DNA from: Protula sp. h YS-2021 | Lineage: Eukaryota; Annelida; Polychaeta; Sabellida; Serpulidae | Direction: 5' to 3' | Length of the DNA stretch: 64,000 nt | NCBI GenBank assembly: GCA_949752745.1 | Contig: CATKHT010000044.1 | Span: 1 to 64,000, forward strand | In this document: positions 46,245-62,988 of the stretch, one piece after another | Layout of the letters: each line of letters begins with the position of its first letter | Numbering within the stretch: the first letter of the stretch is position 1 | Position numbers and translations under genes: made by a program | The notes under the pieces: generated by a model | What the model was told of the DNA's origin: nothing | The model's input: the letters and a program-made list of their open reading frames with translations, nothing else | The model's database searches: none

Positions 46245-46609
46245 AGTAGGGTGAAAAGGAGAGTTCTGGGTCACTTGATGACGTCATACTGTCTGGAAGT
46301 GACGTCATCATGTCTGGACCGGAAGTGCTGTCTAGACCGGAAGTGCTGTCTAGACCGGAAGTGCTGTCTAGACCGGAAGTGCTGTCTGGAGTGGAAGTGA
46401 CGTCATCATGTCTGGACCGGAAGTGACATCATGATGTCTGGACCGGAAGTGACGTCATCATGTCTGGACCGGAAGTCATGATAAGCGTTAGGATAGGCGC
46501 GACCATGTGTGACGTCATCATGACGTCATACTGAGATGATGCTGTCTGGAGCGAAAGTGGTTTGGCCGAGTCAATCAACATGAAGCCAATGAACCCGACC
46601 TGTCAATCA
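46245..46609 (+). repeat. Left terminal inverted repeat, 365 bp
   Basis: Matches the reverse complement of 62635-62988 apart from an 11-bp insertion near 46510-46520 (a duplicated GACGTC-ATCAT segment). It contains seven CCGGAAGT and six TGACGTCA words in ~20-bp units of the type GTCTAGACCGGAAGTGCT. Confidence 0.95.
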
Positions 46610-46621
46610 GTGTAACCATGG

Positions 46622-47188
46622 CAACAGACCCCCCCCCCCCTCGAAATTGTGATTTTTGCATATTTATCCGTTTCAGACGATTCTGAACATTTTTCATTTT
46701 TTCGACCCCCCCCCCCCTCGAAATTGTGATTTTTGCATATTTATCCGTTTCAGACGATTCTGAACATTTTTCATTTTTTCGACCCCCCCCCCCCCCTCGA
46801 AATTGAGATTTTTGCATATTTATCCGTTTCAGACGATTCTGAACATTTTTCATTTTTTCGACCCCCCCCCCTCGAAATTGTGATTTTTGCATATTTATCC
46901 GTTTCAGACGATTCTGAACTTTTTTCATTTTTTCGAGCCCCCCCCCCCCCCTCGAAATTGTGATTTTTGCATATTTATCCGTTTCAGACGATTCTGAACT
47001 TTTTTCATTTTTTCGGCCCCCCCCCCCCCCCTCGAAATTGTGATTTTTGCATATTTATCCGTTTCAGACGATTCTGAACATTTTTCATTTTTTCGACCGA
47101 CCCCCCCCCCCCCAGGACAGACTATGTACCGATCCCCCCCCCCCTAGGACAGACTATGTACCGACCCCCCCCCCCCCAGGAGAACAGA
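46622..47188 (+). repeat. Left subterminal C-run repeats
   Basis: Six ~80-bp units, each a C9-C14 run followed by TCGAAATTGTGATTTTTGC, a CGTTTCAGACGATTCTGAAC segment and TTTTTCG. Two shorter units with GACAGACTATGTACCGA follow. The short units match the right-end repeats in inverted orientation, so the inverted homology extends beyond the TIR. Confidence 0.93.
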
Positions 47189-47201
47189 CTAAAAAAAATT
47201 G

Positions 47202-47255
47202 TGCTGAATCAGCATGATGAAATCGTTGATTCAGCATGATAAAATCGTATATAAG
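47202..47255 (+). promoter_or_regulatory. Left outer promoter: TGCTGAATCAGCA palindrome and TATATAAG box
   Basis: A perfect 13-bp palindrome at 47202-47214, a half copy (TGATTCAGCA) near 47228, and TATATAAG at 47248-47255 followed by TGTAGTGTCTCGAGGCTTA. The right end (62319-62390, minus strand) carries the same arrangement, so the two ends have inward-facing sister promoters. Confidence 0.7.
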
Positions 47256-47308
47256 TGTAGTGTCTCGAGGCTTAGGCATCGTCAGACACACCAGCTATCA
47301 ACATAGAC

Positions 47309-47389
47309 ATGGATGACTTTGAAACAGTTACTTTTGATGATACATTATTATCGTTGGAAGAGATAGATGCGTCATGGTACAATCGCTAA
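47309..47389 (+). CDS. Short acidic peptide ORF, partial homologue of the right-end ORF
   Basis: Twenty-six codons after the left outer promoter, beginning MDDFETVTFDD and rich in Asp/Glu. DNA around it (ACACACCAGCTATCA) matches the 5' end of the right-end gene (62319). This looks like the decayed or rearranged start of a duplicated terminal gene, or a genuine small acidic peptide. No function is known. Confidence 0.3.
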   Translation: MDDFETVTFDDTLLSLEEIDASWYNR

Positions 47390-47481
47390 CAAACGGTTTA
47401 CCAACAACCTTTCTCGACGGTTTCAATGACATGACTCCGCGATTTTACAAACATCTCATGAAAACCTACATGTAACATCTG

Positions 47482-47490
47482 TATAAAAGG
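47482..47490 (+). promoter_or_regulatory. TATA box (TATAAAAGG) of the first + strand accessory gene
   Basis: Initiation about 30 bp downstream (~47512) would fall after the ATG at 47508, which supports the ATG at 47544 as the start. Confidence 0.6.
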
Positions 47491-47543
47491 AGGTAAAACC
47501 ATCTACAATGTCAACATTGCTTCTTCATCGATGTGTAGAGACC

Positions 47544-47942
47544 ATGGATGACGTCTTCAAAGTGAATTATGCTGACTATGTGTTTTCAAAGCTTCCTGCT
47601 TTTGAATCGGATTGGATGCTGCAAGTGAAGAACTTACATCAGCATTGGGAAGCTGTTGGAAAGACCATTCCAAGAGATCGTTTCATCCGCTCGTTTCTAC
47701 GTGAATGTGAAGATCTACATTTACCGTTAACTTATGACATTGATTTAGCATTTATCAACGTGAATACAATTTGGGCAGTTGAGCTCATGTTAGATGTGGC
47801 TGCAAGAATCATTTTACATTATGATGATGATGTTCCATTGAAGACGAATGTATCAGAGCTTGTCCGATTCAACCATGGACGAGTTGAAGTGAATTCAAAA
47901 CTTTGCAAGTTCTTTGCTGACTCAGCAGATAGTTGGGTATAA
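47544..47942 (+). CDS. Predicted helical accessory protein, MDxxFK family, member 1
   Basis: Unrecognised protein of 132 aa. I chose the ATG at 47544 over 47508 because of the TATA position and because the product then starts MDDVFKxxYxD, aligning with MDACFKxxYxD of the protein at 48695. Further shared positions are FLRECEDL/FLGECHKT, DIDLA/DFDAA and a VE-x4-V segment. It looks mostly alpha-helical, soluble and acidic, with no signal peptide. It is the first substantial gene of the + arm, where early regulatory or host-interaction genes would sit; that role is inference. Its stop codon lies inside the TATA box of the next gene. Confidence 0.65.
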   Translation: MDDVFKVNYADYVFSKLPAFESDWMLQVKNLHQHWEAVGKTIPRDRFIRSFLRECEDLHLPLTYDIDLAFINVNTIWAVELMLDVAARIILHYDDDVPLKTNVSELVRFNHGRVEVNSKLCKFFADSADSWV

Positions 47943-47946
47943 AAGG
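47915..47946 (+). promoter_or_regulatory. Maf-type palindrome TGCTGACTCAGCA plus TATA box
   Basis: A perfect 13-bp T-MARE-like palindrome at 47915-47927 lies 10 bp before TATAAAAGG (47938-47946). Two more CTCAGCAGA half-sites follow at about 47953 and 47975. The upstream gene's TAA stop (47940-47942) is part of the TATA box. Confidence 0.75.
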
Positions 47947-48022
47947 GAGTGAACTCAGCAGAGTGAAGTCATTTCTCAGCAGACAGTTGGAGGGAGTGGA
48001 TCATCAGTACATTGTAGCAGCC

Positions 48023-48670
48023 ATGGAGAACAAGACAAGCAACGCAACGCAGCGCAGCAGCAGCTTTAAAATTAGTGCTAACTTAACCATTACTGTGGAG
48101 CATGGAGAATATGGGCCATTTCTACGCATCACACGTGGAGAGAGATGGTGTGCTTATTCACCATCTTTGTGGAAGATTGTATGCCAAAGCTTGAAAAATT
48201 TACGCGACATTGGCTTCAAACTGTACTTAACGCAAACGAAGTGGCTTGAAGTCATTTCATACTTGGATATGCGCTATGTGAGTTTTGTGCGCACGTCACG
48301 GTTTGAAGGGAAAGAATACACACATCACATCAACATGAATGATGGTGAATGGGAGACACTGCTTCAGGAGATGGACAACATCAACTCAGCCCTATCACCA
48401 TGTGAGGAATGTCATGACAAGAAAACGATCATCAAGCTGCAAAAGGATGGTCGGATGAAGGTGTCAAAGCTATCCAAGAAAAGGCTGGCTGAAGTTCAGT
48501 TGGAGAACATGAACGTACAAAATCAACTTGGACTTACCTGTGACTATTGCGGTGCTTGTGGATATGTGGAGGATTATCATTGCCACTGCCACAAGTATAA
48601 TTGCAAGTTGTGTGAACCAAGCAACTTCTGCGGCAAGTGTGGAGTACTTAAAGTCAGTGAAGCACAGTAA
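48023..48670 (+). CDS. PC4-like plus Cys-rich accessory protein
   Basis: 215 aa. I chose ATG 48023 because the TATA box at 47938 predicts initiation near 47968. Residues ~12-115 resemble the small PC4-like proteins of the minus arm: a strand block, then YVSFVRTSRF and a terminal strand-helix MNDGEWETLLQEM, equivalent to LLTIPEWKMM in the clearest PC4 member. The C-terminal ~50 residues carry several CxxC pairs with His (CDYCGACG, HCHCHKYNCKLC, CGKCG), a likely zinc-binding module. PC4 folds bind single-stranded DNA and act in transcription, so a DNA-binding regulator or replication accessory is plausible but inferred. Confidence 0.65.
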   Translation: MENKTSNATQRSSSFKISANLTITVEHGEYGPFLRITRGERWCAYSPSLWKIVCQSLKNLRDIGFKLYLTQTKWLEVISYLDMRYVSFVRTSRFEGKEYTHHINMNDGEWETLLQEMDNINSALSPCEECHDKKTIIKLQKDGRMKVSKLSKKRLAEVQLENMNVQNQLGLTCDYCGACGYVEDYHCHCHKYNCKLCEPSNFCGKCGVLKVSEAQ

Positions 48671-48694
48671 AAGCCCACAAGACACTGAAACAAG

Positions 48695-49204
48695 ATGGAC
48701 GCATGTTTTAAAAATGCTTATATTGACTTGATGATTGCTAAACTTGCTTGCTGTGGCACTCCAGACTATCAACTTTATCATTTGGATGCTTTTTGGGATG
48801 TTGTACATCATAGTCTTGATGTGATTGAACTGCATTCAAGATTTCTTGGAGAATGTCATAAAACTGGAATAGAAGAAGATCCTGACTTTGACTTTGATGC
48901 TGCACTTTATTCTGCTCGCACTGATGTGGAAGTATATTTCACCGTGGTTGATCATTTGAGAGATTGTTGTAAAGAAGAAGAGGAAACCGAGCAGCTTTAT
49001 CAGGTAAGTTATAAAAACCTTTTTTAAACATGTTTATGACAACATAGTGAATTGTTTCTCAAAGACATAACCATGTTTTTCTTACTAGCAAATTTAGTTT
49101 TATGTGAGTGGTTTCAACGTAAACAAAGAAAGAATATGATAGAAGAGGCAGCAAATATATTAAAAGATATTTTATTACAGGAAGAAACCGACATGTCAGA
49201 ATAA
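48695..49204 (+). CDS. Predicted helical accessory protein, MDxxFK family, member 2 (spliced)
   Basis: Exon 1 is 48695-49003, exon 2 is 49181-49204, 110 aa after splicing. The unspliced frame would also end after 110 codons (49027). The donor CAG|GTAAGT is consensus and the acceptor TTTTATTACAG has a good tract; the 177-nt intron joins codons cleanly and changes the C-terminus to EETDMSE. The N-terminus starts MDACFK and aligns with the protein at 47544. It is acidic and probably helical, with no recognised domain. The gene begins 24 nt after the PC4-like gene and has no TATA box of its own. Confidence 0.6.
49004..49180 (+). other. Candidate spliceosomal intron inside the Polinton
   Basis: GTAAGT to TTATTACAG, 177 nt, AT-rich. 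It could also serve to splice upstream leader sequence onto the NADAR gene that starts 39 nt after the acceptor. Confidence 0.55.
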
Positions 49205-49219
49205 AGAAGCAAAGTCAAC

Positions 49220-49657
49220 ATGAAGAATCTTGTACTATTCAGCGGTCATAAGGACGTTCTTTCAAATATGTTTCCAACACGACTTGAAAAGTATGGACAT
49301 GTGTTCAACTCAAGTGAAGCGTTGTATCAATATGAGAAAGCAGTGTTTCATCACCGTCCAGATATTGCTTCAGCCATTGTGTCATCCAGAAATGGATATG
49401 AAGCGAAACGTATTGCTAAAGGGATAAAACCATGTCCTTTATGGCATACAGTGAAGAGAAGCAAAATGCAAGATGTTTTACAAGTCAAACTGGATCAGTG
49501 TGTATTGTTTCGCAATAAGTTGAAAGAATGTAAAGACAAAACTTTAGTTGAAGCAACGTATGATCATTGGTGGGGAGCTGGTGTGAAACATGTGTCATCT
49601 GGATATCCTGGTCAGAATATTATGGGAAAGTTGTTAGAACTGTTGTGTGAGGGTTAG
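49220..49657 (+). CDS. NADAR-domain protein (YbiA-like N-glycosidase / ADP-ribosyl-guanine hydrolase fold)
   Basis: 145 aa, one complete NADAR domain. Family motifs are present in order: FSGHKDVLSN near the N-terminus, FNSSEALYQYEKA (catalytic Glu region), LWHTVKRSKMQDVLQVKLDQ, LVEATYDHWWGAG and GQNIMGKLLELL. Known NADAR proteins act in riboflavin-intermediate clearance (YbiA type) or remove ADP-ribose from guanine in nucleic acid, opposing DarT-like toxins. In a virus-like element it could erase a host or viral ADP-ribosyl mark on DNA or RNA; that is inference. ATG 49220 is 15 nt after the spliced upstream gene. Length is normal for the family and no key segment is missing. Confidence 0.88.
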   Translation: MKNLVLFSGHKDVLSNMFPTRLEKYGHVFNSSEALYQYEKAVFHHRPDIASAIVSSRNGYEAKRIAKGIKPCPLWHTVKRSKMQDVLQVKLDQCVLFRNKLKECKDKTLVEATYDHWWGAGVKHVSSGYPGQNIMGKLLELLCEG

Positions 49658-49758
49658 AGACTTTTTCATTTGCTTGCCAACCGTCATGGTGTGCAGACGT
49701 GTGGACATGTAAATTTGAAGTATGTTTAACTTGTGTTGCATTGATTCAAGACTGCACA

Positions 49759-50091
49759 ATGGCGGACATGACACTGAGACAATATATTGTGCAAAAAGCT
49801 TATTGTGAAGAAATGTTATCAGCTGTAAAAAAGTTTGCCTATTTAGTCTGTCCTGCTTGTCAACATGAAGAGTGTCAAGAACATACTTGTCATTTTGCAT
49901 CTGTTTATACATATTGGAATGAAGCTAAATATTACATGCATTTAGATAAAGTGTTAGAGAATGCAAATCAACGTTGTGAGAAATATGGTGTAGATGCTAT
50001 TACATTGGATGAACTCAGTCATTGGTTAGTGTTCATTGAAGACCAATGGTCTCCAGTTATTCATACCATTGTATCTATACTTGATTTGTAA
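49759..50091 (+). CDS. Predicted helical accessory protein with Cys/His cluster, MDxxFK-like member 3
   Basis: 110 aa from ATG 49759; the longer reading would need a GTG start. A CPACQHEECQEHTCH cluster (residues ~31-45) could bind zinc. The C-terminal half (KVLENANQRCEKYGVDAITLD then VIHTIV) aligns loosely with the helical halves of the proteins at 47544 and 48695, suggesting a third, more diverged paralogue. No known domain is recognised. It ends 106 nt before the integrase. Confidence 0.55.
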   Translation: MADMTLRQYIVQKAYCEEMLSAVKKFAYLVCPACQHEECQEHTCHFASVYTYWNEAKYYMHLDKVLENANQRCEKYGVDAITLDELSHWLVFIEDQWSPVIHTIVSILDL

Positions 50092-50197
50092 AAAAACTTG
50101 TTAGTTAAGTTATAAATGCATGTTAGTTAAGTGATGTTGGTTGAGTTATAAAATAAAAGCTGTTCTGTTGAGAAGGTGGTTTTCATTCGGTGTGACC
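50092..50197 (+). promoter_or_regulatory. Spacer with TTAGTTAAG repeats and TATAAAAT box before the integrase
   Basis: Contains two GTTAGTTAAG words, the unit also repeated at 55985-56150, and TATAAAAT at 50147-50154, 51 bp before the integrase ATG. It is the only clear TATA box for the long overlapping gene cluster that follows. Confidence 0.55.
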
Positions 50198-51304
50198 ATG
50201 TCGACGTGGAAAGACTACTTGACCAATATTTACTTCAAACCTGGACAGCCTGGAGCATTTGCTGGTCCTTACAAACTGTATCACATCTTACGAAAACATA
50301 ATCAACCAGTCACACAGTCACAAGTGAAGAAATGGTTGCAGGATCAAGATGCTTTTAGTTTACTCCAACCTGTCAAATACAGGTTCAAAAGACAACGTGT
50401 CATTACACGTGGTATTGATGACATGTGGGATATTGATTTGGCTGATATGGGAAACATAGCTCCCTATAATGATGACATACGCTTTTTACTCATTGTCATT
50501 GATGTGTTTTCCAAATATGTCTGGGTACAGCCAATACCTAATAAATCACATACCAGCGTCATACAAGCTTTCCAAAAGATTTTTCATGACACACGACGAA
50601 GACCGCGAACTCTAAGGTCTGATAAAGGAACAGAATTTAAAAACAGATGGGTAAAAGCATTTTTGAAGAAAGAAGGCATTCATGCTTATACCACAAAGAA
50701 TGAAACCAAAGCCAACTTTGCTGAAAGAGTCATTCGTACTCTAAAGGGAATGATGTATCGGTATTTTCTACATAATCAAACTTACCGTTATTTAGACATT
50801 CTTCCAGACTTGGTGTACAATTACAACCATAGACCTCATGGTTCTCTTCCTAATAAATATGCTCCAGCCGAGATTCGTAAAGACAACGAATCAAAAGTGT
50901 GGAAGTATATGTATGTCGACAAACTGAAATTGAAACCTAAGAAGAAGAAGAAGTACAAATTTAACATTGGTGATCATGTTCGCATTTCTCACATTAAATA
51001 TGTGTTTCAACGGGATTATCACATCAAATGGACGCAAGAAGTCTTCATTGTCACACATCGTTGTAAGAAGCAAGGAATACATTTATATCGTGTGAAAGAC
51101 TTTTTAGACGAAGATATTGATGGTCATTTCTATGAAGAAGAACTGCAGAAAGTGACCAAAGATATTGAATCTATTTATAGAATTGAAAAAGTCTTGAAAA
51201 CACGTAAAAGACGAGGAGGAGGTGTGAAAGAATTATTTGTCAAGTGGTTAGGTTGGCCAAACAAGTTTAACAGTTGGGTGAAAGAAACAGACATTCAACA
51301 ATGA
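50198..51304 (+). CDS. Retroviral-type integrase with C-terminal chromodomain
   Basis: 368 aa from ATG 50198; the upstream in-frame codons need a TTG start. The rve catalytic core carries Asp near residue 80 (DIDLADM), Asp ~142 (RSDKGTEF) and Glu ~176 (NFAERVIRTLKG), the DDE triad that cuts and joins DNA ends. A basic KPKKKKKYKF linker and SH3-like region follow. Residues ~327-368 form a chromodomain (YRIEKVLK, FVKWLGWP, FNSWVKETDI) of the kind that directs integration by reading histone marks. The enzyme accounts for the 6-bp target duplication. Its stop overlaps the next start (ATGA). Confidence 0.95.
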   Translation: MSTWKDYLTNIYFKPGQPGAFAGPYKLYHILRKHNQPVTQSQVKKWLQDQDAFSLLQPVKYRFKRQRVITRGIDDMWDIDLADMGNIAPYNDDIRFLLIVIDVFSKYVWVQPIPNKSHTSVIQAFQKIFHDTRRRPRTLRSDKGTEFKNRWVKAFLKKEGIHAYTTKNETKANFAERVIRTLKGMMYRYFLHNQTYRYLDILPDLVYNYNHRPHGSLPNKYAPAEIRKDNESKVWKYMYVDKLKLKPKKKKKYKFNIGDHVRISHIKYVFQRDYHIKWTQEVFIVTHRCKKQGIHLYRVKDFLDEDIDGHFYEEELQKVTKDIESIYRIEKVLKTRKRRGGGVKELFVKWLGWPNKFNSWVKETDIQQ

Positions 51305-51960
51305 AGCATCCATTTACATGTTTAGTCTCTGGACCTACAGGCAGTGGCAAAACGTCTCTGGTGAAGGAAATTCTAGAACAAAAGTTGATTAAACCCTCTC
51401 CAAAAAGCATTTTATGGCTCTATGCAGCAGATCAGCCTTTGTACAAGGGAATGAAAGGCGTGGAATTTTACCAAGACATTCCAGATGACATTGAAGAGCG
51501 TTTTAACCCGAAGAAACCAAACTTACTTATCATTGATGACTTAATGACGAAATGCCATAGTGATGAGCGTATGACACGTCTCTTTAGTGTTGGCAGCAGT
51601 CATCAAAATCTAAGCATTATTTTTATTGTGCATAATTTATTCCATCATGGGAAAGAGATGCGAAATATTAGTTTGAATACACATTATATCATTCTGTTTA
51701 AAAATCCGAGAGACAGTCAACAAATTAGTACATTGGCGCGGCAAATGTATCCTAGAAGATCTCAATTTCTCATAGAAGCCTATCAAGATGCTACTAGCAA
51801 ACCTCATGGTTATTTATTCATTGATTTAAAACCAAAGACAAATGATCAACTACGTATTCGTACAGGCATTTTACCAAAAGATACACATTATGTATATATT
51901 GATAAAGCAGTGTATGAACAAGAACCAAGTCATTTAACCATTCGCAGTCAAGATGTCTAA
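51301..51960 (+). CDS. FtsK/A32-type genome-packaging ATPase
   Basis: 219 aa from ATG 51301, overlapping the integrase stop by 4 nt. Walker A (GPTGSGKTS, residues 11-19) and Walker B (NLLIIDDLM, Asp 79 and 80) are intact, followed by a sensor-like segment (LSIIFIVHNLF) and SLNTHYIILFKNPRD, typical of the Polinton and adintovirus ATPases. These enzymes translocate DNA into preformed capsids of double-jelly-roll viruses. The length is normal for the short Polinton version. The 8-nt overlap with the next frame supports co-expression with virion genes. Confidence 0.93.
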   Translation: MKHPFTCLVSGPTGSGKTSLVKEILEQKLIKPSPKSILWLYAADQPLYKGMKGVEFYQDIPDDIEERFNPKKPNLLIIDDLMTKCHSDERMTRLFSVGSSHQNLSIIFIVHNLFHHGKEMRNISLNTHYIILFKNPRDSQQISTLARQMYPRRSQFLIEAYQDATSKPHGYLFIDLKPKTNDQLRIRTGILPKDTHYVYIDKAVYEQEPSHLTIRSQDV

Positions 51961-52279
51961 ACGTATTCGAGCGAACCAGCCGTTTCTTCACTTGCTTGCA
52001 CGCAGTGGGCCTAAACGACGTAAATCCTTGCTACAGCAAGCTACAAAGGAGGAATTAACAAGCTTGTTTGAAATTTGTTTGAATATATTGCAAGGACATT
52101 TACCCTTAAGCTCAAAACGGTTTAAGGAATTTAAACGTGAACGTCATACGCTTCGTACTCTAGCAGATAAGAAGATATCCCTTCGACGAAAAAAGAAGTT
52201 GATTAATCAGAAAGGAGGATTCATTGGAGTTATTGCTAGATTGGCATTGCCCTTGTTAGCCAAACTGCTGCTAAAATGA
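51953..52279 (+). CDS. Basic virion protein with hydrophobic C-terminal helix (adenovirus pX-like candidate)
   Basis: 108 aa. Very basic body (KRRKSLLQQ, FKEFKRERH, KKISLRRKKK) followed by QKGG at residues 86-89 and a hydrophobic/amphipathic terminal helix at 90-108. QKGG-F fits the adenain consensus (M/I/L/N/Q)XGG-X, so the element's own protease may release the helix. In adintoviruses small basic proteins of this place and shape have been compared with adenovirus core protein pX. Homology by sequence alone is weak. Starts inside the ATPase frame and overlaps the next frame by 4 nt. Confidence 0.65.
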   Translation: MSKRIRANQPFLHLLARSGPKRRKSLLQQATKEELTSLFEICLNILQGHLPLSSKRFKEFKRERHTLRTLADKKISLRRKKKLINQKGGFIGVIARLALPLLAKLLLK

Positions 52280-52857
52280 AACATACGATGAAAATGGTCC
52301 TCATTCCTGAATATGAATATAAAATGTTGCTAGAAAAGAAGGGAAAACATGGTGAAATCAAAACGAAAGTGAATAAACTTTTACGTGGGAAGCGAACGCG
52401 TGAAAAGGTTATTGAAATGTCTCAACTTCTTGGCCGTCATTTACGAACAAGTCAGTCTAGACAGCAAAAGCCCTCATCATCATCATCACCACCTGAAAAG
52501 CCAGAAAAGTTATTTTTAAGTCATTTTCAACCTATCTATCATGGAAAAGTAACACAACTTTTAGCCGAACTGAAGAAATATGGTACAACATGGTCAGAGA
52601 AGAATGAACTTGTGTTGAAAACGGGCGATATTATAGCAAATTCCAACATGGTTGATTTGATGAAAGAAGCATTGGTGGCGACAAGAAGAAAAGAACGAGC
52701 CATACCACCACATGGCTGGCATCCGTTTATCCAGGAAATTGTTGATGCTAATATTCCAAAAACAATGTTTAGTAAAAAGATCACTCGTGACGACATTACA
52801 ACAGAAATGAAACAACGTCAACAAAGACGGTTTCCTGAAGGATGGGAAAATTTTTAA
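52276..52857 (+). CDS. Conserved Polinton protein of unknown function, between pX-like and capsid genes
   Basis: 193 aa. Basic, with a Ser/Pro-rich linker (residues ~66-78) separating an N-terminal helical half from a C-terminal half that includes LVLKTGDIIANSNMVDLM and RAIPPHGWHPFIQEIVDANIP. No catalytic motif is visible. The position in the virion cluster and the 4-nt overlap upstream suggest a structural or assembly role; I cannot name the family. Confidence 0.6.
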   Translation: MKHTMKMVLIPEYEYKMLLEKKGKHGEIKTKVNKLLRGKRTREKVIEMSQLLGRHLRTSQSRQQKPSSSSSPPEKPEKLFLSHFQPIYHGKVTQLLAELKKYGTTWSEKNELVLKTGDIIANSNMVDLMKEALVATRRKERAIPPHGWHPFIQEIVDANIPKTMFSKKITRDDITTEMKQRQQRRFPEGWENF

Positions 52858-53075: not shown

Positions 53076-53834
53076 ATGCAGTCGACAAGCTTTTACATTA
53101 CTTTGCCTAGCAATGCGAGTATGACCTATTATCCCAACAACAAGGCTTCGAATTATCAAATTCGTATGCCTCGAACCATCTATCTGAATGGAAAATATGA
53201 AGTGGCTTTAGCTGAAATTCAATATCCACATACATGGACAACGATGAGACAGGGCATGGACTATTCTATTCAGTATCGACAAGAACTATTCGATGATCCT
53301 ATTCTTAGCACTCTCGATATTCCTTATGGGTACTATAGAACCATACAAGAACTATGTGAGGCAGTCAATGAAGAAGCGACTAATGCTCTGAAACTTACAG
53401 AAGCTATTCGACTAAAGTATGATAAAATTAGACGACGTGTGTTTCTATTTCTCGATTATGGTTATGAAGTGTCTTTTTCCACTGGATTGGCTGAGATTTT
53501 AGGATTTATCCCAGATCAATGGTATACTGAAACATGTACAGCTGAACATAAAGCGGATGTGAAACAGGGGTTTTATACACTGTATGTGTATTGTAGCATT
53601 TGTGAACCACAAGTTGTTGGTGATTATTATGTGCCTTTGCTACGTTCTGTTGGCATACAAGGCCATGATGGTGACATTATCATGAAAACGTACGGCGAAC
53701 CGCATTATGTTCCTGTAAACACGTCCAAATTTGACGTGATAGAAATGAATATTAAGGACGACACAGGCTATAATGTTCCATTTCAAACTGGAAAGGTGAT
53801 CTGTAAACTTCATTTTCGACCAAAAGCAATATGA
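53076..53834 (+). CDS. Minor capsid protein (penton, single jelly-roll candidate)
   Basis: 252 aa. N-terminal ITLPSNASMTYYPNNKASNYQIRMP and KYEVALAEIQYPHTW are characteristic of Polinton minor capsid (penton) proteins, followed by beta-rich sequence and a conserved YVYCSICEPQVVGD segment. The expected fold is a single jelly-roll forming the capsid vertices. It sits directly before the pVI-like and major capsid genes, the usual order. A TATA-like GTATATAG lies ~50 nt upstream. Fully open frame of normal length. Confidence 0.82.
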   Translation: MQSTSFYITLPSNASMTYYPNNKASNYQIRMPRTIYLNGKYEVALAEIQYPHTWTTMRQGMDYSIQYRQELFDDPILSTLDIPYGYYRTIQELCEAVNEEATNALKLTEAIRLKYDKIRRRVFLFLDYGYEVSFSTGLAEILGFIPDQWYTETCTAEHKADVKQGFYTLYVYCSICEPQVVGDYYVPLLRSVGIQGHDGDIIMKTYGEPHYVPVNTSKFDVIEMNIKDDTGYNVPFQTGKVICKLHFRPKAI

Positions 53835-54172
53835 AAGCTTATACACACGATCCGTCTGCATATCGCAACCATTTTCTTCGTCAAGTGGGCGGGGAATTAC
53901 CAGGATTCAAAGGAGCGCGAATCCAATATGGCGATGGTATTGGTTCCATACTGGGATCATTGGCTCGCAAAGCTATTCCACTACTTAAGGCTGGGGCTAA
54001 GATCGTTGCGCCACATCTTAAGAAGGCTGCAAAGAATGTCGCGAAAGATGTGACGGGTCGAGTAGCAGAACGTGTGTTTGGTGAACAAAAGCGTATGCAA
54101 CCAACGAAACGTGCCAGAAGACGAAAAACAGCCAGACGGATAACATCAAAATATCGCAAAGATATTTTTTGA
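53831..54172 (+). CDS. Membrane-active minor virion protein candidate (adenovirus pVI-like)
   Basis: 113 aa, overlapping the minor capsid frame by 4 nt. Two adenain-type motifs occur at residues 18-22 (QVGG-E) and 32-36 (QYGD-G), just before a Gly/Ala/Lys-rich amphipathic helix (about 37-73) and a strongly basic tail (87-113). Adenovirus pVI has the same plan, a cleaved N-terminal peptide and an amphipathic helix that disturbs endosomal membranes. Length and position fit adintovirus pVI-like proteins. Sequence similarity is too low to be certain. Confidence 0.65.
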   Translation: MKAYTHDPSAYRNHFLRQVGGELPGFKGARIQYGDGIGSILGSLARKAIPLLKAGAKIVAPHLKKAAKNVAKDVTGRVAERVFGEQKRMQPTKRARRRKTARRITSKYRKDIF

Positions 54173-54176: not shown

Positions 54177-55550
54177 ATGTCTCTCATTCATAATCATTCG
54201 TGTGAATGTAGTCTTTCTCCATTGGAATGGTTTCACGTACCACCAACGCAAACTGCTGTAGAGAAAAGTTATAATGTTGACTATCAACCACTTACAAGCA
54301 TTAGAGAAGGCGCTCCAATAGAATTCTACATTCCTGCGAGTACAGAAGAATATCTGGATTTAAAGAACAGCAAACTTCATATTGTATGTCGCATTCTAAA
54401 GGCTGATGGAACAGCGTGTGGCGCAGATGATAATGTCTCTTGCATCAATGATGTGTTTAATGGGTTATGGTCTAATATTGAATTGTTTCTGAATGATCGT
54501 TTGGTTTCGCATAGCAACAATACTCATGGTTATACCAGCATTATCTCTCATCTCATCCATGATTCGGAAGAAAGTCTGCATTCTGAGCGCTCTATGCGTC
54601 TCATGTACAAGGATACTGCTGGGTCAATGAATAGTCATGAGGTGAAAAGACCTAATCATGAACAATATGTATCCGGGTTTCATGTCAATGCCGACGGTGG
54701 TGACTTGGCTGAGCAAGGCAATAATGGCTTACATCATCGTTATTTGCATACTCGTCTTAGCCGTGATGTTATGCTCGCAGGTGGTTTAAGGATAGATTTG
54801 TTTGAGCAGGATCGTTATCTTCCGAATGGCATCAGTTTGAAATTGCGTTTCCATAGGCAAAAAGATGACTATGTATTGATGGCTGTAAATAATACCTATA
54901 AGGTAGAAGTGAAAGAGGCATTTTTAACCATTCGCAAAGTGAGGGTGAGTCCAGGTATTCAGTTAGGACATGCAGATGCATTGATGAAAAGTCCTGCCAA
55001 GATCATCATCACTAGAAAAGAATGTAAAGTCTTGGCCATTCCAGCAGGATTTCAGTCTTTTGTGAAAGATAACATCTTTTTGGGTCAATTACCAAATCGT
55101 ATTGTCATTGGTCTGGTTCATAATGAAGCTTTTGGTGGATCAGTATTGAGGAATCCATACAATTTTGATCATTTTAATCTGGACTATATGCAACTGTACA
55201 CGGATGGTGAACCAGTTCTATCCAAACCTCTCAAGCTTGACATTACACAGAACAAATACCTGAACGCTTTTGAAACGCTTTACAAATCGTTTGATCGGTT
55301 GAATGGTGAGAAAAGTTCCATTATAAAACGGGAAGATTGGCCTAGAGGTTATGCTTTATTTTCGTTTGACTTAACACCGGATTATGATGGTGATGATCAT
55401 TTCCCCCTGATCAAGCATGGGAATTTGCGGCTAGAAATGAACTTTGCTAGGGCTTTGCAACCTACCATCAATGTCATTGTCTATGCTGAATTTGACAACA
55501 TTATTGAGATCAGTGCCAATCGCAGCATCCAATTCGACTACCAGTCATGA
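54177..55550 (+). CDS. Major capsid protein (double jelly-roll hexon)
   Basis: 457 aa. The N-terminus has PLEWFHVPPTQTAVEKS and REGAPIEFYIPASTEEYLDLKNSKL. Later come FNGLWSNIELFLNDRLVS, a GRE-like RLSRDVMLAGGLRIDLFEQDRYLPNGI region and a terminal YALFSFDLTPDYDGDD strand. This is the Polinton major capsid family, which also appears in invertebrate gene sets as F54H12.2-like proteins. The double jelly-roll trimer forms the icosahedral shell. The full length is open and the last 4 nt overlap the protease gene. Confidence 0.92.
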   Translation: MSLIHNHSCECSLSPLEWFHVPPTQTAVEKSYNVDYQPLTSIREGAPIEFYIPASTEEYLDLKNSKLHIVCRILKADGTACGADDNVSCINDVFNGLWSNIELFLNDRLVSHSNNTHGYTSIISHLIHDSEESLHSERSMRLMYKDTAGSMNSHEVKRPNHEQYVSGFHVNADGGDLAEQGNNGLHHRYLHTRLSRDVMLAGGLRIDLFEQDRYLPNGISLKLRFHRQKDDYVLMAVNNTYKVEVKEAFLTIRKVRVSPGIQLGHADALMKSPAKIIITRKECKVLAIPAGFQSFVKDNIFLGQLPNRIVIGLVHNEAFGGSVLRNPYNFDHFNLDYMQLYTDGEPVLSKPLKLDITQNKYLNAFETLYKSFDRLNGEKSSIIKREDWPRGYALFSFDLTPDYDGDDHFPLIKHGNLRLEMNFARALQPTINVIVYAEFDNIIEISANRSIQFDYQS

Positions 55551-55984
55551 ACACGAAGCAGATTGATGCCATATTGAGTCATGATGTCATGACCAAAGAC
55601 TTGTTTCAAGGCGTGTTTGCCATGGACCAGTTACCGTCTTTACAACGCGGCGCCTATGTGATCAACACAGACGATCAAGATGAACCAGGAGAACATTGGG
55701 TGGCAGTGTATTATGATAAAGACCCTGTGAAATATTTTGACTCTTATGGACTGTTCCCTCTCGATGATCGTTTAGACATGTTTTTAAGAAATGACTATAT
55801 GTATAATTCTATCTCATTACAAACGCCAATATCATCGTCATGTGGTTTTTATTGTGTCTATTATATATTGCATAGAGCTCGAGGTCAGAGTATGTTTGAT
55901 ATTGTGAATATATTAAAAAGAAAGGATGGTGATTTTATTGTAAAGGATTTTGTATATAGACATTATAAACCATTGTTTTATTAA
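55547..55984 (+). CDS. Adenain-like cysteine protease (Ulp1/C5-type maturation protease)
   Basis: 145 aa. Catalytic residues are visible in the usual order: His50 (GEHWVAVYY), Asp65 (KYFDSYG), Gln92 oxyanion (LQTP) and Cys99 (SSSCGFYCVYY). The family cleaves precursor virion proteins after (M/I/L/N/Q)XGG or XGX-G motifs; matching motifs are present in the small basic proteins at 51953 and 53831. It is shorter than adenovirus adenain (~204 aa) but normal for Polintons. The frame overlaps the major capsid gene by 4 nt and is the last gene of the + arm. Confidence 0.93.
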   Translation: MNTKQIDAILSHDVMTKDLFQGVFAMDQLPSLQRGAYVINTDDQDEPGEHWVAVYYDKDPVKYFDSYGLFPLDDRLDMFLRNDYMYNSISLQTPISSSCGFYCVYYILHRARGQSMFDIVNILKRKDGDFIVKDFVYRHYKPLFY

Positions 55985-57473: not shown

Positions 57474-57486
57474 GATTGTTACCTTG

Positions 57487-57834: not shown

Positions 57835-57887
57835 GTTGACGCTTCAGTGTTCACACCACAACTAACTCTCAAGTTGAAGTGTCTCCC

Positions 57888-57896
57888 CCTTATATA
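57888..57896 (-). promoter_or_regulatory. TATA box TATATAAGG containing the polymerase stop codon
   Basis: The TAA ending polymerase B (57890-57892) is part of this box, which lies ~54 bp before the PC4-like start codon. Confidence 0.7.
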
Positions 57897-60800
57897 CTGT
57901 AATGCCCATGCGCCAAAGTGGAATAGCCATCACTCATCACATATCGCTTGTCATCAAAGGGAGAGAGAGCCACTTTCCTCAACTTCTCCGAGAAGATCTG
58001 GTGGTTATGACTTCGAATGATGTGTCCTGTAGTCATCGTTTGCGTTTGGTTGAACAAACTGTCTCTATACTGCTGATGTTTCATCCGTCTTTGACACGCG
58101 CGAGTGATGCCTTTGGCCGTACGTTTTTCTTTCCCACCATACATCATACTATACATTTTCGGCCGAAGTCCAACAAACTCTTCAATGGGAATGCCCGCCG
58201 TCTCATCTTTCATTTTCCCAAGCACTTTCTTGTTCACGTTGGAATGTAGGAAATGATCTGGCGGATAGTCACTTGTGTCGAACAAGTCAGCATCTTCCTG
58301 CATGTCTTTGTATATATCTTCCGTTTCTATGTCATAACATAGACTGTCGGTGTCGCTGAACAAGAGTTTGGCGTTGGGATACTTGGTCATGATGTAGTTG
58401 TAATGAAAGTGGAACATGAGCACCTTGCTGAGGTCGAGAATGGTGAACCCAGCTTGAATGGGTTTATCCAGAAGCAGATCCACTTTGCGCAAATGTACCG
58501 CGGTCAAATCTTCGTTGAAAATTCTAAATTTGTGGAAGGAAGGTTTGGCTACAAGTTTCTTGAACCGCTTTTCCTGGTGAACAAGTTCCACATTCATGCG
58601 CTTTCTTACATTTTCCATGGTTTTGCCAAACACCGAGTTGTTCATCAATTTGAAGAAGTCTTTCTCAAACGGGTTCTTGGCCAACTTTCTCTTTTCCGTG
58701 TTCAAGGAGATGTATTTTGCCAACCATTTGCTCTGTGCAAACATGATGGCACGATGCACCTTCGTGACTTTCAATCCCAGTGAGACATATTGCTGTAAAT
58801 TTCTATAATGAAGCACATATTTCTTCTTGTCACACAAGTTGGGAATGAGCTTTTCACTAGGTTTGCCTTTCATGTTTAGATCTTTCCGTAGCTTCTGACT
58901 ATGTTTTGACAATTCTCCCACTTTCACACATTTCCGTTCTGGAGCCACTGGATAGTGATTATGATGATCATGGATTGAATATGGGTATTCCAAATCCACT
59001 TCTAAAATGTATCCAATCTCGTCATCTTCATCCACATCCATAAAGTCAATGGATTCTGGCTCGCTCACCCACATAAATCCACTTTCCGGCATGCTTTGCG
59101 ACATAGCCCAGCCATACAAGTTGTTTGCATCCAGGTAAGTCAAGTAGTTGGTTGGTTTCAAGGGATCGTAATCTGCTACGTAGGGGTTATTTGCTTTCGC
59201 ATACTTGTGTGTGATGACAGATATTCCTCCACGTAAACCTTGTTCAACCATTTGGTACATGTCAATGTCGTTGATCAATTCCAATTTCACCTTTGTCGCT
59301 TTCAACATGGCATCCCACGACAGTCCTGGCGCTGTATAGTAGTGAGCAGGATCCAATTCATACGTGTTGAGACATACGTGACGAAAGTTTTCAAACACGT
59401 CAGCCAGCAGCAACACATCTGATTTCAGGTACAAGTCATGGTATTCGCTAAATGTAGTACAGTGGAATGTCTCCCACACCTTCTGCGCATGCGCATAATC
59501 CTCATCGCTAATGTCTTCTTCACTGAGTAGACTGTAAAACTTGTCTTTGGACGGCAGTTGTGTTTCAGCAAACTTGGATGGCTCATCCACGTAATCATAA
59601 GGGTACACTCCCTTTCTCAACAGTAACTCTTGTTGGTCACTATCGTGAATGTGTGACGTCATGTGATAAAAGTTGTCTTTCCCTTCTGCTGCCAGGTTGG
59701 AGACCAACTTCTGTAGAGAAGTACTCATGAACTGAAAGCTGTCTGTAAATTTCAGATTGCTCATGGTGAATGCAATATATTTCTCAACGGTGTTGGGAAT
59801 GACTGTAATCCTTTCGTTTTTGAACTTTCCAATTTCTTCCATGATCAAATGGCTGTCATAGCCTCGGAAATTGTGGAAAAACACAGGAATGATGAAAGAA
59901 TCTTCAACATCCTGCTGATCTTTTCGAAATCGAAATTGTAAATTGCATTCATTATGTGCAGCTCCGCGGTATTTGCCATTGATATGATCATGATCTCTCA
60001 CACGATCTGCTCCTAGAGGCTCATGACAAATGTAGCAATCTGTGGCGTTCTTATAATGCTCTTCATCTTCATGAGTCATCACCATTTTCTTTGGCTGTAG
60101 CAAGCCATGCACAATACGATCACGCTCATTCACCATATGGTTTAAAAAGACTTTCACAGCATTATCGCCTCGATATACGACTGGAGCACGTGTATCATAT
60201 TGGCTCACAACCACGTAGGCAAAGCTGTTTGGACGATGATGTTGATACTTGTCTCCTTCATGCTTTTTCGTGAAACATTCAAAGTCCGCATAAATGACAA
60301 ACGGCGCTCGCTGTTGTTTGGCTACATTCTTGAACTTGATGAAGGGTTCCTTGGGGAATGATAAACGTTGTGCTCCATGCTTGCCACACACTTCACGATG
60401 CTTGTCTAACAGATCTTGTCGCCTAAACCCATGAAGACAGTTGAAACAATAAAAAGCTACACCATTATGCTTTGATCGATAAGCCATCAGTCTGCTGAAA
60501 TTCTTGATGAGGCAATAATGTCTTGTCTTGTCATTGCTAATCAAAAGCAAGTTGATTTCTCTCGCACTGTTGGCGCTGGTGTTTCGGCTGAGTTGTATGG
60601 GAACAACGACATCATGTTCATATCCAAACACGTTAATGGACACATCATTCTCCTTTTCAAACTTTGGAATGTCTGTAATCGGTGTTGGAAATGTCATGCC
60701 TTCTACCTTCAATTCGTTCTCAAATGGTGTGTAATGACTCACGCGGCAAGGACTGTTTGTTGAAGGGTGAAGGTGAGCCAATACAGACCATAAGAAACAT

Positions 60801-61573
60801 TTGTTGTCTTTATTCTGAATGTTTAACACCGCCTTTGTATTCTTTACTTTCTTCGGTAGTGGGATAAAACTGCTTGCTTCCAATGGTGCTGACGTCGCTG
60901 TATGCACTTCAATGAATAATATGTTATCCAACACCCAGCCAGAACCTTGTCGCTCATGTTCATCAAACCTGGTAAATAATTCTTTATAGGCTTCTGGCAA
61001 GTCCTTCTCAATATCTGTTGGATTGTATGCTGCATACGTTGGACTACTGATGAAGGCATTATCCACTTGTTCTACCATCACGCCTTCAACATTTGGTGTC
61101 ATTTTCTTGAAGCGTGCATGCACGACAATGTACCATTTCATACCACGGTTTAACGTTTCTAGCAAATGTCTCTTGATTCGGTTCTCTTGTTGTCGCATTT
61201 CAAGTAGCAAATCTGATCCATCTTCAGGCTCAAACCGTCTTTCCTGCGCGTTTTCACCAAGACTCACTCTTCTGCCTCTGCCTACTTGCACTGTCTCTTT
61301 CTTTCTTTGTTCTTCATGAGACACATTTTCCATCTCAGCACATGCATGTGTCTCAAATGCATCCAAAGATGAAAATATCTTGACGCATTTACAGCAGAGG
61401 ACTGGATCAGGTCTGTCAACACCATCTTGTACGGTCTTTCGTCTCTTGGCTTCAATCTGCTCAACAAGCTCTTCATGAGCACGTTTCATCCTAGCTGGTT
61501 TGCATGTATGTGTCACGAACACTTCCAGAGATGGAAATGTCACATCACAATCATGACAGTAGACTGGTGCCAT
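57890..61573 (-). CDS. Protein-primed family B DNA polymerase
   Basis: 1227 aa from ATG 61573; 18 further in-frame codons need a GTG start and lie too close to the TATA box at 61632-61640. The N-terminus has two C2H2-like fingers (about residues 6-24 and 60-78). A region with CFLWSV (~259) and RHYCLIKN (~352) could be a Cys/His protease-like fold; a third Cys/His cluster lies at ~376-397. Exonuclease motifs: Exo I DFE (430-432), Exo II FRGYDSHL (Asp ~573), Exo III LYLKSDVLLLAD (~715-725). An HNH/endonuclease VII-like cluster (CYICHEPLG ... RDHDHINGKYRGAAHNECN, 514-544) sits between Exo I and II. Polymerase motifs: A LDANNLYG (Asp ~815), B KLMNNSVFGKT (~975-985), C SDTDSL (1074-1076). The gene replicates the linear genome; every motif looks intact. 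Confidence 0.95.
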   Translation of the reverse strand: MAPVYCHDCDVTFPSLEVFVTHTCKPARMKRAHEELVEQIEAKRRKTVQDGVDRPDPVLCCKCVKIFSSLDAFETHACAEMENVSHEEQRKKETVQVGRGRRVSLGENAQERRFEPEDGSDLLLEMRQQENRIKRHLLETLNRGMKWYIVVHARFKKMTPNVEGVMVEQVDNAFISSPTYAAYNPTDIEKDLPEAYKELFTRFDEHERQGSGWVLDNILFIEVHTATSAPLEASSFIPLPKKVKNTKAVLNIQNKDNKCFLWSVLAHLHPSTNSPCRVSHYTPFENELKVEGMTFPTPITDIPKFEKENDVSINVFGYEHDVVVPIQLSRNTSANSAREINLLLISNDKTRHYCLIKNFSRLMAYRSKHNGVAFYCFNCLHGFRRQDLLDKHREVCGKHGAQRLSFPKEPFIKFKNVAKQQRAPFVIYADFECFTKKHEGDKYQHHRPNSFAYVVVSQYDTRAPVVYRGDNAVKVFLNHMVNERDRIVHGLLQPKKMVMTHEDEEHYKNATDCYICHEPLGADRVRDHDHINGKYRGAAHNECNLQFRFRKDQQDVEDSFIIPVFFHNFRGYDSHLIMEEIGKFKNERITVIPNTVEKYIAFTMSNLKFTDSFQFMSTSLQKLVSNLAAEGKDNFYHMTSHIHDSDQQELLLRKGVYPYDYVDEPSKFAETQLPSKDKFYSLLSEEDISDEDYAHAQKVWETFHCTTFSEYHDLYLKSDVLLLADVFENFRHVCLNTYELDPAHYYTAPGLSWDAMLKATKVKLELINDIDMYQMVEQGLRGGISVITHKYAKANNPYVADYDPLKPTNYLTYLDANNLYGWAMSQSMPESGFMWVSEPESIDFMDVDEDDEIGYILEVDLEYPYSIHDHHNHYPVAPERKCVKVGELSKHSQKLRKDLNMKGKPSEKLIPNLCDKKKYVLHYRNLQQYVSLGLKVTKVHRAIMFAQSKWLAKYISLNTEKRKLAKNPFEKDFFKLMNNSVFGKTMENVRKRMNVELVHQEKRFKKLVAKPSFHKFRIFNEDLTAVHLRKVDLLLDKPIQAGFTILDLSKVLMFHFHYNYIMTKYPNAKLLFSDTDSLCYDIETEDIYKDMQEDADLFDTSDYPPDHFLHSNVNKKVLGKMKDETAGIPIEEFVGLRPKMYSMMYGGKEKRTAKGITRACQRRMKHQQYRDSLFNQTQTMTTGHIIRSHNHQIFSEKLRKVALSPFDDKRYVMSDGYSTLAHGHYSI

Positions 61574-61631
61574 CGTTGTTGCTTCTTCAACTGCTGGAAC
61601 TGAAATGAAGTAAAATATACGTTTCACTCTT

Positions 61632-61667
61632 CCTTTTATACCACTTCAATGGTGTGTTGACTCAGCA
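61632..61667 (-). promoter_or_regulatory. Polymerase promoter: TATAAAAGG plus Maf-like palindrome
   Basis: TATAAAAGG (61632-61640, minus strand) with a one-mismatch palindrome TGTTGACTCAGCA at 61655-61667 just upstream. The start codon lies ~60 bp downstream of the TATA box. Confidence 0.75.
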
Positions 61668-62043
61668 GAATGTATCACTAGTTGACTAGTTGACATGTTT
61701 CACTCATGCTTTTATGCTACTTCCATGTAATCAAAATATGGTGTGTAACTTTTCAAACTTGTTCCAAAATGTTAAAATTGCTGACTCAGCAGAATTTTAC
61801 TTGTGTATATGAATGTCTTACTTACAGTTGTGAAGTTGTACAGCTGCACTGCTACACAGCAGAGACATCTAGCGGTGAAGTTAACTGACGGTGAAGTTAA
61901 ATGGTCTGTCAAATGGTATTCATCCGCCAACTAGACCTGAAATGTGATAAAATGTATTCTCACACACACACACACAAACATGTTTTGCTTCATTTCATAA
62001 TATAGGATGGCCCTTAAAAGGGCCCGAAATATTTTAGTATATA
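61668..62043. promoter_or_regulatory. Upstream control region between polymerase and right-end gene
   Basis: A duplicated promoter-like block (GTTTCACTCATGCTTTTATG at 61699, resembling the polymerase TATA region), a perfect TGCTGACTCAGCA at 61779-61791, a CA microsatellite near 61963 and a short GGCCCTT-AA-AAGGGCC hairpin at about 62010. No gene is seen in it. Confidence 0.55.
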
Positions 62044-62319
62044 TCAGCAGCAGTTATGGGGTTGTCCCTCATATTCCAACCACACTTGACACTTGCAGTA
62101 TCGTTGAGTCAGTGTTACTATGCGGTTGTTCCACATAAATGTAATTACTACGTCAGGCTTCACTGCAGTGATCTGAGTTGGAAATTGTAGCACCTCCTCC
62201 AAAGCATATGTAATATCAGCTGCTTCAGCTTCATCACGCATATTTACCCAGATGCAAACAGATTCATTCGCTTGAAACGCTGTTAAGTCATCAATGATGA
62301 TAGCTGGTGTGTTATCCAT
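62044..62319 (-). CDS. Right-end accessory protein of unknown function
   Basis: 91 aa from ATG 62319. Codons further upstream lie within and beyond the TATA box (62359-62366) and are not credible starts. The protein begins MDNTPAIIIDDLTAF, is acidic at the N-terminus and ends with a Cys pair (RYCKCQVWLEYEG). No domain is recognised. The DNA around its start matches the left end near 47281-47320, so it belongs to the extended terminal duplication. Being the outermost gene under a Maf-site/TATA promoter, it may be expressed early; that is inference. Confidence 0.55.
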   Translation of the reverse strand: MDNTPAIIIDDLTAFQANESVCIWVNMRDEAEAADITYALEEVLQFPTQITAVKPDVVITFMWNNRIVTLTQRYCKCQVWLEYEGQPHNCC

Positions 62320-62358
62320 GATGTGTCTGACAATGTCTCTAAGCCTTGAGACACCACA

Positions 62359-62390
62359 CTTATATAGGACTTTATCATGCTGATTCGACA
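62359..62390 (-). promoter_or_regulatory. Right outer promoter: TATATAAG and TCAGCATGATAAA element
   Basis: Minus-strand TATATAAG (62359-62366) followed by TGTGGTGTCTCAAGGCTTA and preceded by AATCAGCATGATAAA. It is the inverted counterpart of the left promoter at 47202-47255, but its palindrome is degraded to TGTCGAATCAGCA. Confidence 0.65.
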
Positions 62391-62410
62391 AAAATTTTTT
62401 GGTGCTCTCC

Positions 62411-62612
62411 TGGGGGGGGGGGGGGTCGGTACATAGTATGTCCTAGGGGGGGGGGGTCGGTACATAGTATGTCCTGGGGGGGGGGGGGTCGGTACATAGT
62501 ATGTCCTAGGGGGGGGGGGTCGGTACATAGTATGTCCTGGGGGGGGGGGTCGGTACATAGTATGTCCTAGGGGGGGGGGGGGTCGGTACATAGTATGTCC
62601 TAGGGGGGGGGG
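62411..62612 (-). repeat. Right subterminal G-run repeats
   Basis: Six ~31-bp units of a G8-G13 run plus GTCGGTACATAGTATGTCCT. Inverted copies of the same unit occur at the left end (about 47100-47178). Confidence 0.93.
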
Positions 62613-62634
62613 GTCGGGTTCATTGGCTTCATGT

Positions 62635-62988
62635 TGATTGACAGGTCGGGTTCATTGGCTTCATGTTGATTGACTCGGCCAAACCACTTTCGCTCCAGAC
62701 AGCATCATCTCAGTATGACGTCACACATGGTCGCGCCTATCCTAACGCTTATCATGACTTCCGGTCCAGACATGATGACGTCACTTCCGGTCCAGACATC
62801 ATGATGTCACTTCCGGTCCAGACATGATGACGTCACTTCCACTCCAGACAGCACTTCCGGTCTAGACAGCACTTCCGGTCTAGACAGCACTTCCGGTCTA
62901 GACAGCACTTCCGGTCCAGACATGATGACGTCACTTCCAGACAGTATGACGTCATCAAGTGACCCAGAACTCTCCTTTTCACCCTACT
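62635..62988 (-). repeat. Right terminal inverted repeat, 354 bp
   Basis: Reverse complement of 46245-46609 except for an 11-bp indel. It contains seven CCGGAAGT and five TGACGTCA words (minus strand). A ~33-bp direct duplication of the inner edge (TCGGGTTCATTGGCTTCATG) extends from about 62612. Confidence 0.95.

Follow-up and report, generated by a model that had tools for sequence, protein, structure and literature searches.

Whether the Polintons, or Mavericks, of animals are living viruses is a long-standing question, and a complete provirus in the serpulid annelid Protula sp. h YS-2021 bears directly on it. The window considered here covers the initial 64 kb of the 70,680-bp contig C53, in an assembly of 863 Mb and 218 contigs, and the element spans positions 46245-62988. 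A first, sequence-only reading had proposed an intact and young Polinton- or adintovirus-like provirus at this position, a proposal now supported by the identity of its terminal repeats, its open genes and an empty insertion site. Overall, we put at roughly 80% the probability that this is a complete, recently integrated Polinton/Maverick-type double-stranded DNA provirus, that it has been amplified to roughly a hundred copies, some of them recently, and that a second contig, C193, is most likely its free form.

The element begins with AGTAGGGTG and ends with CACCCTACT, giving termini of the form AGTAGGG...CCCTACT. Its terminal inverted repeats (TIRs) differ by a single 11-bp indel and by no substitution across 354 aligned bases, exactly as the sequence-only reading had described them and their AG...CT ends. 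The checks suggested by that reading included a count of TIR substitutions and a search for an empty ATTTCT site. The count of 0 in 354 places the upper 95% bound on TIR divergence at ~0.85% by the rule of three. The 6-bp ATTTCT target-site duplication (TSD) that it had reported on both sides proved exact at its coordinates (Table 1). Long TIRs with AG...CT ends and a 6-bp TSD, together with the integrase, ATPase and double-jelly-roll capsid protein described below, identify the element as a Polinton/Maverick. The empty site was found within the same assembly. Each flank of the insertion has one other full-length, high-identity place, on contig C153 (97%), and the remaining matches (38 and 31) are short and at most 85% identical. 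On C153 the two flank matches are separated by six bases, a single ATTTCT. We take C153 to be the allele without the element, less likely a paralogue; since it carries the empty site, the insertion is unfixed within the assembly.

Two converging arms hold nineteen frames, each starting with ATG and several overlapping by a few bases; they are free of internal stops because they were picked stop to stop. The rightward arm carries early genes, integrase, ATPase, capsid genes and protease, and the leftward arm the polymerase and a cluster of small genes. The integrase is of retroviral type (rve 8.3e-11, above cut-off; chromo 6.9e-8), and the FtsK/A32-type ATPase matches both Pox_A32 (9.7e-7) and Adeno_IVa2 (1.0e-6) above their cut-offs. 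The major capsid protein matches no Pfam profile, and a capsid alignment found no PDB chain by sequence. An AlphaFold model (pLDDT 85.5), built from 40 sequences (39 of 120 listed homologues and the window's own), has a double jelly roll, and structure comparison matched it to the capsid proteins of PBCV-1, iridovirus, Sputnik and mavirus. Homologues are numerous in a large protein database (938 of 4486 candidate proteins match, the best at 79% identity), and no relatives turned up in IMG/VR, whether it was scanned with the NADAR protein, the capsid protein or its alignment. The core set named by the sequence-only reading thus held to differing degrees: integrase and ATPase by Pfam profile and major capsid protein by fold, with the polymerase recognized by motifs, the protease by a match below cut-off and the minor capsid protein by position. 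Frame 55547-55984 probably encodes an adenain-type cysteine protease, given its catalytic-type motifs and weak PDB matches (E 0.19-0.82) that include adenain.

A search of the whole assembly with a 33-base terminal pattern returned 99 forward and 98 reverse matches, or 197 ends, and a reversed control returned 0. We inspected 140 of these ends from two 100-row lists (the full pattern, and a GGG subclass with 63 + 63 matches) that overlap in 60. The inspected ends form 64 pairs, 54 of which span 16,605-18,192 bp and the other ten 0.7-35 kb. From these counts the family would hold roughly a hundred alike copies in the genome. Perfect 6-bp TSDs, each within its own flanks, were present in seven of eight other copies tested, and the two ends of those eight copies differ by 0-5 substitutions over 234-420 BLAST-aligned terminal bases. 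At C1:20.38 the left terminus of the copy is altered and a matching TSD is absent.

Coding sequences have been conserved across these copies. The major capsid protein is identical in all 93 places scored, the best-ranked by similarity among at least 93. In 19 chromosomal copies from the similarity-ranked list, the capsid gene shows 1-5 synonymous and 0 non-synonymous changes relative to the window (C193, as L050, is not among them, and one of the two capsid genes of L065 was used); being identity-ranked, this list was not used as sole proof of purifying selection. Left arms were compared from C193 and 13 chromosomal copies. Every one has a complete, stop-free NADAR gene, and the other early genes are present in all 14, some cut by piece ends. 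Polymerase pieces from six copies (1000-1163 residues) contain no stops, and the C4:25.26 copy has one stop in the integrase and one in the ATPase piece. The pairwise ratio of non-synonymous to synonymous divergence (pN/pS) was computed from 5-15 sequences per gene, including the window and C193 where complete; the number varies because some genes were cut by the fetched pieces. It was 0.12 for the integrase (10 sequences, one with a stop), 0.13 for the ATPase (5), 0.15 for the 49759 gene, 0.28 for the 47508 gene, 0.31 for NADAR (15) and 0.41 for the 48023 gene. Because pN/pS is below 1 in six of seven left-arm genes, we infer that the copies descend from genomes mostly under purifying selection, NADAR included. 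The expectation that most genomic copies are broken did not hold for those sampled here: many have full length and, where read, open frames, though broken ones exist.

Several copies have unusual structures. At C6:37269807-37271359 two back-to-back elements of 0.7-0.8 kb carry the same Polinton termini and are possibly non-autonomous derivatives resembling miniature inverted-repeat transposable elements. Two capsid genes encoding an identical protein lie ~3 kb apart at C1:82902676-82907229, perhaps through local tandem duplication inside one copy, and the L028 copy (C3:92158500-92160100) has a second, partial terminal sequence ~180 bp inside the first. Between copies, the putative minor capsid gene diverges far more than the adjoining major capsid gene, with 36.5 non-synonymous and 14.5-16.5 synonymous changes (216-217 codons) between the window and L051, L052, L053 and L063; L066 and L067, out of frame upstream of the capsid gene, were left out of these rates.

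The ends of the copies carry a record of how they may have been replicated. Just inside AGTAG lies a tag of 13-14 bases with 20 variants among copies. Both ends of a copy bear the same tag in 63 of 64 pairs, and the lone exception differs by one base; random pairing of ends gave 5.1 matches on average and at most 14. This within-copy identity implies that a change at one end is carried to the other, which is most simply linear replication with end renewal, as protein priming would do. Differences between copies also cluster by gene. The window and L076 differ at 11 sites in NADAR and at 3 across five other genes, an unevenness reached in 0 of 100,000 simulations, and when six of the 11 copies were tested for mosaicism in this way, four gave p ≤ 1e-4 and two p ~0.014. 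NADAR is the left-arm gene that differs most from the window in 7 of the 11 copies, which points to exchange among co-replicating genomes; the 47508 gene holds that place in three others. A candidate link between end tag and polymerase N-terminus was dropped, since the 13 variable sites did not cleanly follow the tags and physical linkage would be a confounder.

Contig C193 is 17,358 bp long, and its first and last bases are the terminal bases of the Polinton. Across the whole assembly only three ends carry its exact tag pattern: both of its own, and the left one of the copy at C5:15715892, whose right end has a different tag. In the first 500 bp, comparison with the C5 left end gives 0 substitutions for the right end of C193 and 1 for its left end; comparison with the C5 right end gives 30 and 53, respectively, mostly beyond the repeat (C193 left has only 5 within the first 421 bp). 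Over 1000 bp, the right end of C193 shows 0 substitutions to the C5 left end by BLAST and 3 by global alignment; against the C5 right end, 557 bp align with 27 substitutions (BLAST). Between the C5 copy and the left and middle pieces of C193 there are 11 substitutions in ~7.4 kb. In the C193 capsid protein 454 aligned residues are identical, and the 4 non-synonymous changes come from an apparently 9-base shorter gene end. With both of its ends of the left type in these comparisons, C193 appears to be a sibling genome and not a collapsed C5 insertion; such rewriting of a right end from a left end is what protein-primed linear replication predicts. We consider it probable that C193 represents one or a few long reads of a free linear molecule. 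The starts of 20 other small contigs (of 218) were inspected and none begins on a Polinton terminus, and a literature search turned up nothing on free animal Polinton DNA among the titles and abstract openings of the matches listed, nor in the passages of one meeting report.

The end repeats are dense in two host-type motifs. The left TIR contains 6 cyclic AMP response element (CRE; TGACGTCA) and 7 ETS (ACCGGAAGT) core motifs. Dinucleotide shuffles of the same sequence averaged 0.02 CRE and 0.002 ETS, with 0 of 2000 reaching either count. The 16-kb interior of the element has 1 CRE and 0 ETS, 18 CRE and 4 ETS lie scattered over the 46-kb left flank, and no 365-bp flank window (10-bp steps) comes near the left TIR's combination. 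Across 22 termini, including the window's left end and both C193 ends, there are 6-8 CRE and 7-10 ETS motifs each; these are related sequences and not independent evidence for enrichment. A literature search found no paper combining Polintons or terminal inverted repeats with CREB and ETS. Contig C199 (12,540 bp; L044, 1-150) starts inside a CRE/ETS-like repeat that resembles the Polinton ends without matching them, and perhaps marks a related element family.

The cargo is likewise distinctive. NADAR was assigned by Pfam PF08719, above cut-off. It has no PDB match at E 0.01, and its 241 matches among phage records are all below 60% identity, the 20 listed lying at 30-35%. At E 0.001 no match remained among 20 candidate proteins for NADAR or among 64 for the 48023 protein, a weak absence given that the search depends on shared 5-residue words. 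A survey of viral NADAR proteins covers phages, nucleocytoplasmic large DNA viruses and RNA viruses, including bivalve and annelid picornaviruses, and the words Polinton and adintovirus are absent from its main text (PMC9503650). Conversely, a full-text search found NADAR unmentioned in Polinton, Maverick and adintovirus papers among the matches listed. A possible host counterpart of NADAR, judging by the literature, is a guanine ADP-ribosyltransferase of the pierisin/CARP type. Four paralogues (48023, 56425, 56702 and 57102) are predicted to share a PC4/PUR/Whirly fold, matched over most of the domain. A full-text search found no paper joining PC4 to Polinton, and searches on Whirly, PUR-alpha or single-stranded DNA-binding protein gave no Polinton paper among the matches listed. 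The cargo and end anatomy of the element were not found described in the literature searched. The polymerase frame contains polymerase motifs in the expected order; it also matches Endonuclease_7 below cut-off (E 3.7e-4), and has no match among phage records. Of the vOTU sites described for polinton polymerases (PMC11071308), a Cys-type string was found in this frame, and the His string as typed was not.

These features suggest a replication cycle in which the integrase would insert linear virus DNA and create the 6-bp duplication, as seen in the duplication and the empty site. The end repeats, with their observed CRE and ETS sites, may serve as replication origins and as promoters driven by host factors, and protein priming at the ends would let the polymerase copy the linear genome. 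PUR/PC4-like proteins, from their predicted fold, may coat the displaced single strands, and one end could be rewritten from the other, as the matching tags show. The ATPase, protease and double-jelly-roll capsid proteins would package the DNA into virions, NADAR, by analogy with its family, may strip host-added ADP-ribose from guanine in nucleic acid, and C193 would most likely be the free unit-length linear form. In its fullest version this proposal holds that C193 is a unit-length linear extrachromosomal genome whose right end was rewritten from a left end, and that the family replicates as a virus in the living animal, with ends driven by host CRE/ETS factors, its own set of PUR/PC4-type single-strand-binding proteins and a NADAR that undoes host ADP-ribosylation of nucleic acid. 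We would give that full version even odds.

Table 1. Features of the provirus and its insertion site, in window coordinates.
Feature	Coordinates	Strand	Basis or detail
Target-site duplication, left copy ATTTCT	46239-46244	.	single copy at C153 empty site
Left terminal inverted repeat, 365 bp	46245-46609	+	6 CRE, 7 ETS motifs
Left subterminal array: ~77-bp repeats with C runs, then 31-bp repeats	46611-47181	+	
144-aa early-arm protein, no known domain	47508-47942	+	Pfam search
215-aa protein: PUR/PC4-like paralogue with Cys-rich tail	48023-48670	+	phmmer 1.5e-6 vs 56425 protein
110-aa protein, no function assigned	48695-49027	+	
NADAR-domain protein, 145 aa	49220-49657	+	PF08719 E 5.2e-18, 66.3 bits (cut-off 35.1)
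110-aa protein, no function assigned	49759-50091	+	
Integrase (rve) with C-terminal chromodomain, 368 aa	50198-51304	+	Pfam
Packaging ATPase, 219 aa	51301-51960	+	Pfam, motifs
108-aa basic protein; virion core protein by position only	51953-52279	+	
193-aa protein, no function assigned	52276-52857	+	
Putative minor capsid (penton) protein, 252 aa	53076-53834	+	position only
113-aa protein, no function assigned	53831-54172	+	
Major capsid protein, double jelly roll, 457 aa	54177-55550	+	AlphaFold and structure matches
Adenain-like cysteine protease (probable), 145 aa	55547-55984	+	weak profile match, motifs
PUR/PC4/Whirly-like protein, 124 aa	56425-56799	-	predicted fold
PUR/PC4-like paralogue, 113 aa	56702-57043	-	leave-one-out profile; no scored shuffle reaches score
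PUR/PC4-like paralogue, 123 aa	57102-57473	-	leave-one-out profile
PC4 (p15) domain protein, 115 aa	57487-57834	-	PF02229 1.5e-8; PDB 6ycs 3.3e-7
Family B DNA polymerase, protein-primed type, 1227 aa	57890-61573	-	motifs
91-aa protein, no function assigned	62044-62319	-	
Right subterminal array: 31-bp repeats with G runs	about 62413-62620	-	
Right terminal inverted repeat, 354 bp	62635-62988	-	5 CRE, 7 ETS motifs
Target-site duplication, right copy ATTTCT	62989-62994	.	exact sequence match

Several observations weigh against a recently amplified provirus with a free form. Small indels are many and substitutions few on the right side of C193, where the polymerase frame is broken; these indels are probably sequencing error, as in a low-coverage consensus. 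C193 could also be an assembly product, since leftovers of assembly can be repeat-bounded too. Among the inspected ends 12 have no partner, and some copies are deleted, truncated or stop-bearing. The list of 93 capsid places was ranked by similarity to the window copy, leaving out that copy itself, and one of the seven left-arm genes (48695) has a pN/pS of 1.64, from few changes. Among the core genes, the polymerase frame matches no Pfam polymerase model and no PDB chain, the putative minor capsid protein matches no Pfam profile and no PDB entry, and the protease scores 21.0 bits against Peptidase_C5 (E 2.9e-4), 0.3 bits below the cut-off of 21.3.

Might the same family have spread by an intragenomic transposon burst without virions, and might C193 be left over from assembly, either as a repeat node or as the C5:15715892 copy's alternative haplotype after trimming? 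C193 is indeed nearest to that copy among the pieces compared, its consensus is poor on the right side and it is a single case among the small contigs inspected. Such a burst leaves unexplained why both contig ends fall exactly on the terminal base and carry the C5 left tag only, and why the right end tracks the C5 left end for 1000 bp and not the C5 right; because both ends match the C5 left end, C193 is not simply the C5 insertion. The purely synonymous capsid differences in the 19 chromosomal copies, identity-ranked as they are, also speak against it, and we regard this account as unlikely. Another alternative is that the copies are old and merely look young after homogenization by gene conversion. 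The mosaic differences do indicate exchange, among copies or among their replicating forms. Conversion between copies would still leave unexplained ends that are alike within copies and unlike between them, the window insertion has an empty counterpart, and among eight further copies examined seven sit in flanks of their own, each with its own TSD, so that homogenization of old copies appears very improbable.

Repeated germline infection by a circulating exogenous virus, in place of amplification of resident proviruses, deserves more weight and can be entertained tentatively. It would fit the purifying selection measured on six of seven left-arm genes, the mosaic genomes and the variety of end tags (20), both of which a diverse population in circulation would give, and the possible free genome. 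Against it, neither the capsid protein nor its alignment has relatives in IMG/VR, and one assembly cannot separate such infection from resident amplification with virions.

The rest of the window contains no further copies or fragments of the element at the thresholds used, and scans for RNA families (at gathering score) and tRNAs found none. A Tc1/mariner-type transposon at 8175-9436 has 223-bp inverted repeats that are 99% complementary and includes a transposase-like frame (8589-9038), a second mariner/Tc1-type transposase-like frame lies at 37713-38414 (both named by eye), and collagen-like repeats were read by eye among the flank frames; these repeats and the mariner-type frames point to an invertebrate host.

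Compared with known systems, the family resembles the intact Mavericks of vertebrates in its intact young copies and purifying selection, and in a core of TIRs, 6-bp TSD, integrase, motif-based polymerase of the protein-primed type, ATPase, probable protease and double-jelly-roll capsid protein. That survey reports 134 intact Mavericks in 17 vertebrate species, with a maximum of 38 per genome (PMC8097293); the 197 ends counted here by terminal pattern are a differing measure from counts of intact elements. The Protula family further differs in having an insertion with its empty counterpart and a contig that may be the free linear form. The element shares a retrovirus-like integrase, adenovirus-class capsid genes and a family B polymerase in an animal element with Adintoviridae and other meldviruses (PMC11071296). 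An adintovirus protein ranked 10 in a viral structure library, at 11% identity to the window capsid protein, and the labels adintovirus-like and Polinton/Maverick could not be separated. First among that library's matches to the capsid protein was R9XLG5 of Cotesia sesamiae Mombasa bracovirus (28% identity, E 5e-34), presumably derived from a Maverick; its TM-scores are low (0.36-0.39) and the capsid is the one gene compared. The capsid fold is also common to the virophages Sputnik and mavirus, at ~10-12% identity; mavirus shares the integrating life style.

Adenoviruses offer a further parallel. The window element has a probable adenain-like protease, weakly scored, and an IVa2-like ATPase match; unlike adenoviruses it has an integrase, and its terminal protein, judging by frame length, is apparently fused to the polymerase. 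Adenovirus inverted ends carry CRE/ATF sites, paralleling the end repeats described here, adenovirus replication renews the ends, and the PUR/PC4-like proteins stand where adenoviruses have DBP. To our knowledge, the Polinton core set includes neither NADAR nor a family of PUR/PC4-like genes.

Overall, this is a known kind of element in an unusually alive-looking family. Maverick particles were unobserved according to the abstract of a 2021 survey (PMC8097293), and in the Protula family an unfixed insertion with its empty site comes together with about a hundred similar copies, a contig that may be the free linear genome, and population-genetic traces of copying between ends. NADAR ties a Polinton-type element to conflicts over nucleic-acid ADP-ribosylation, and C193, if it is the free form, could make the question of whether these elements are living viruses directly testable.

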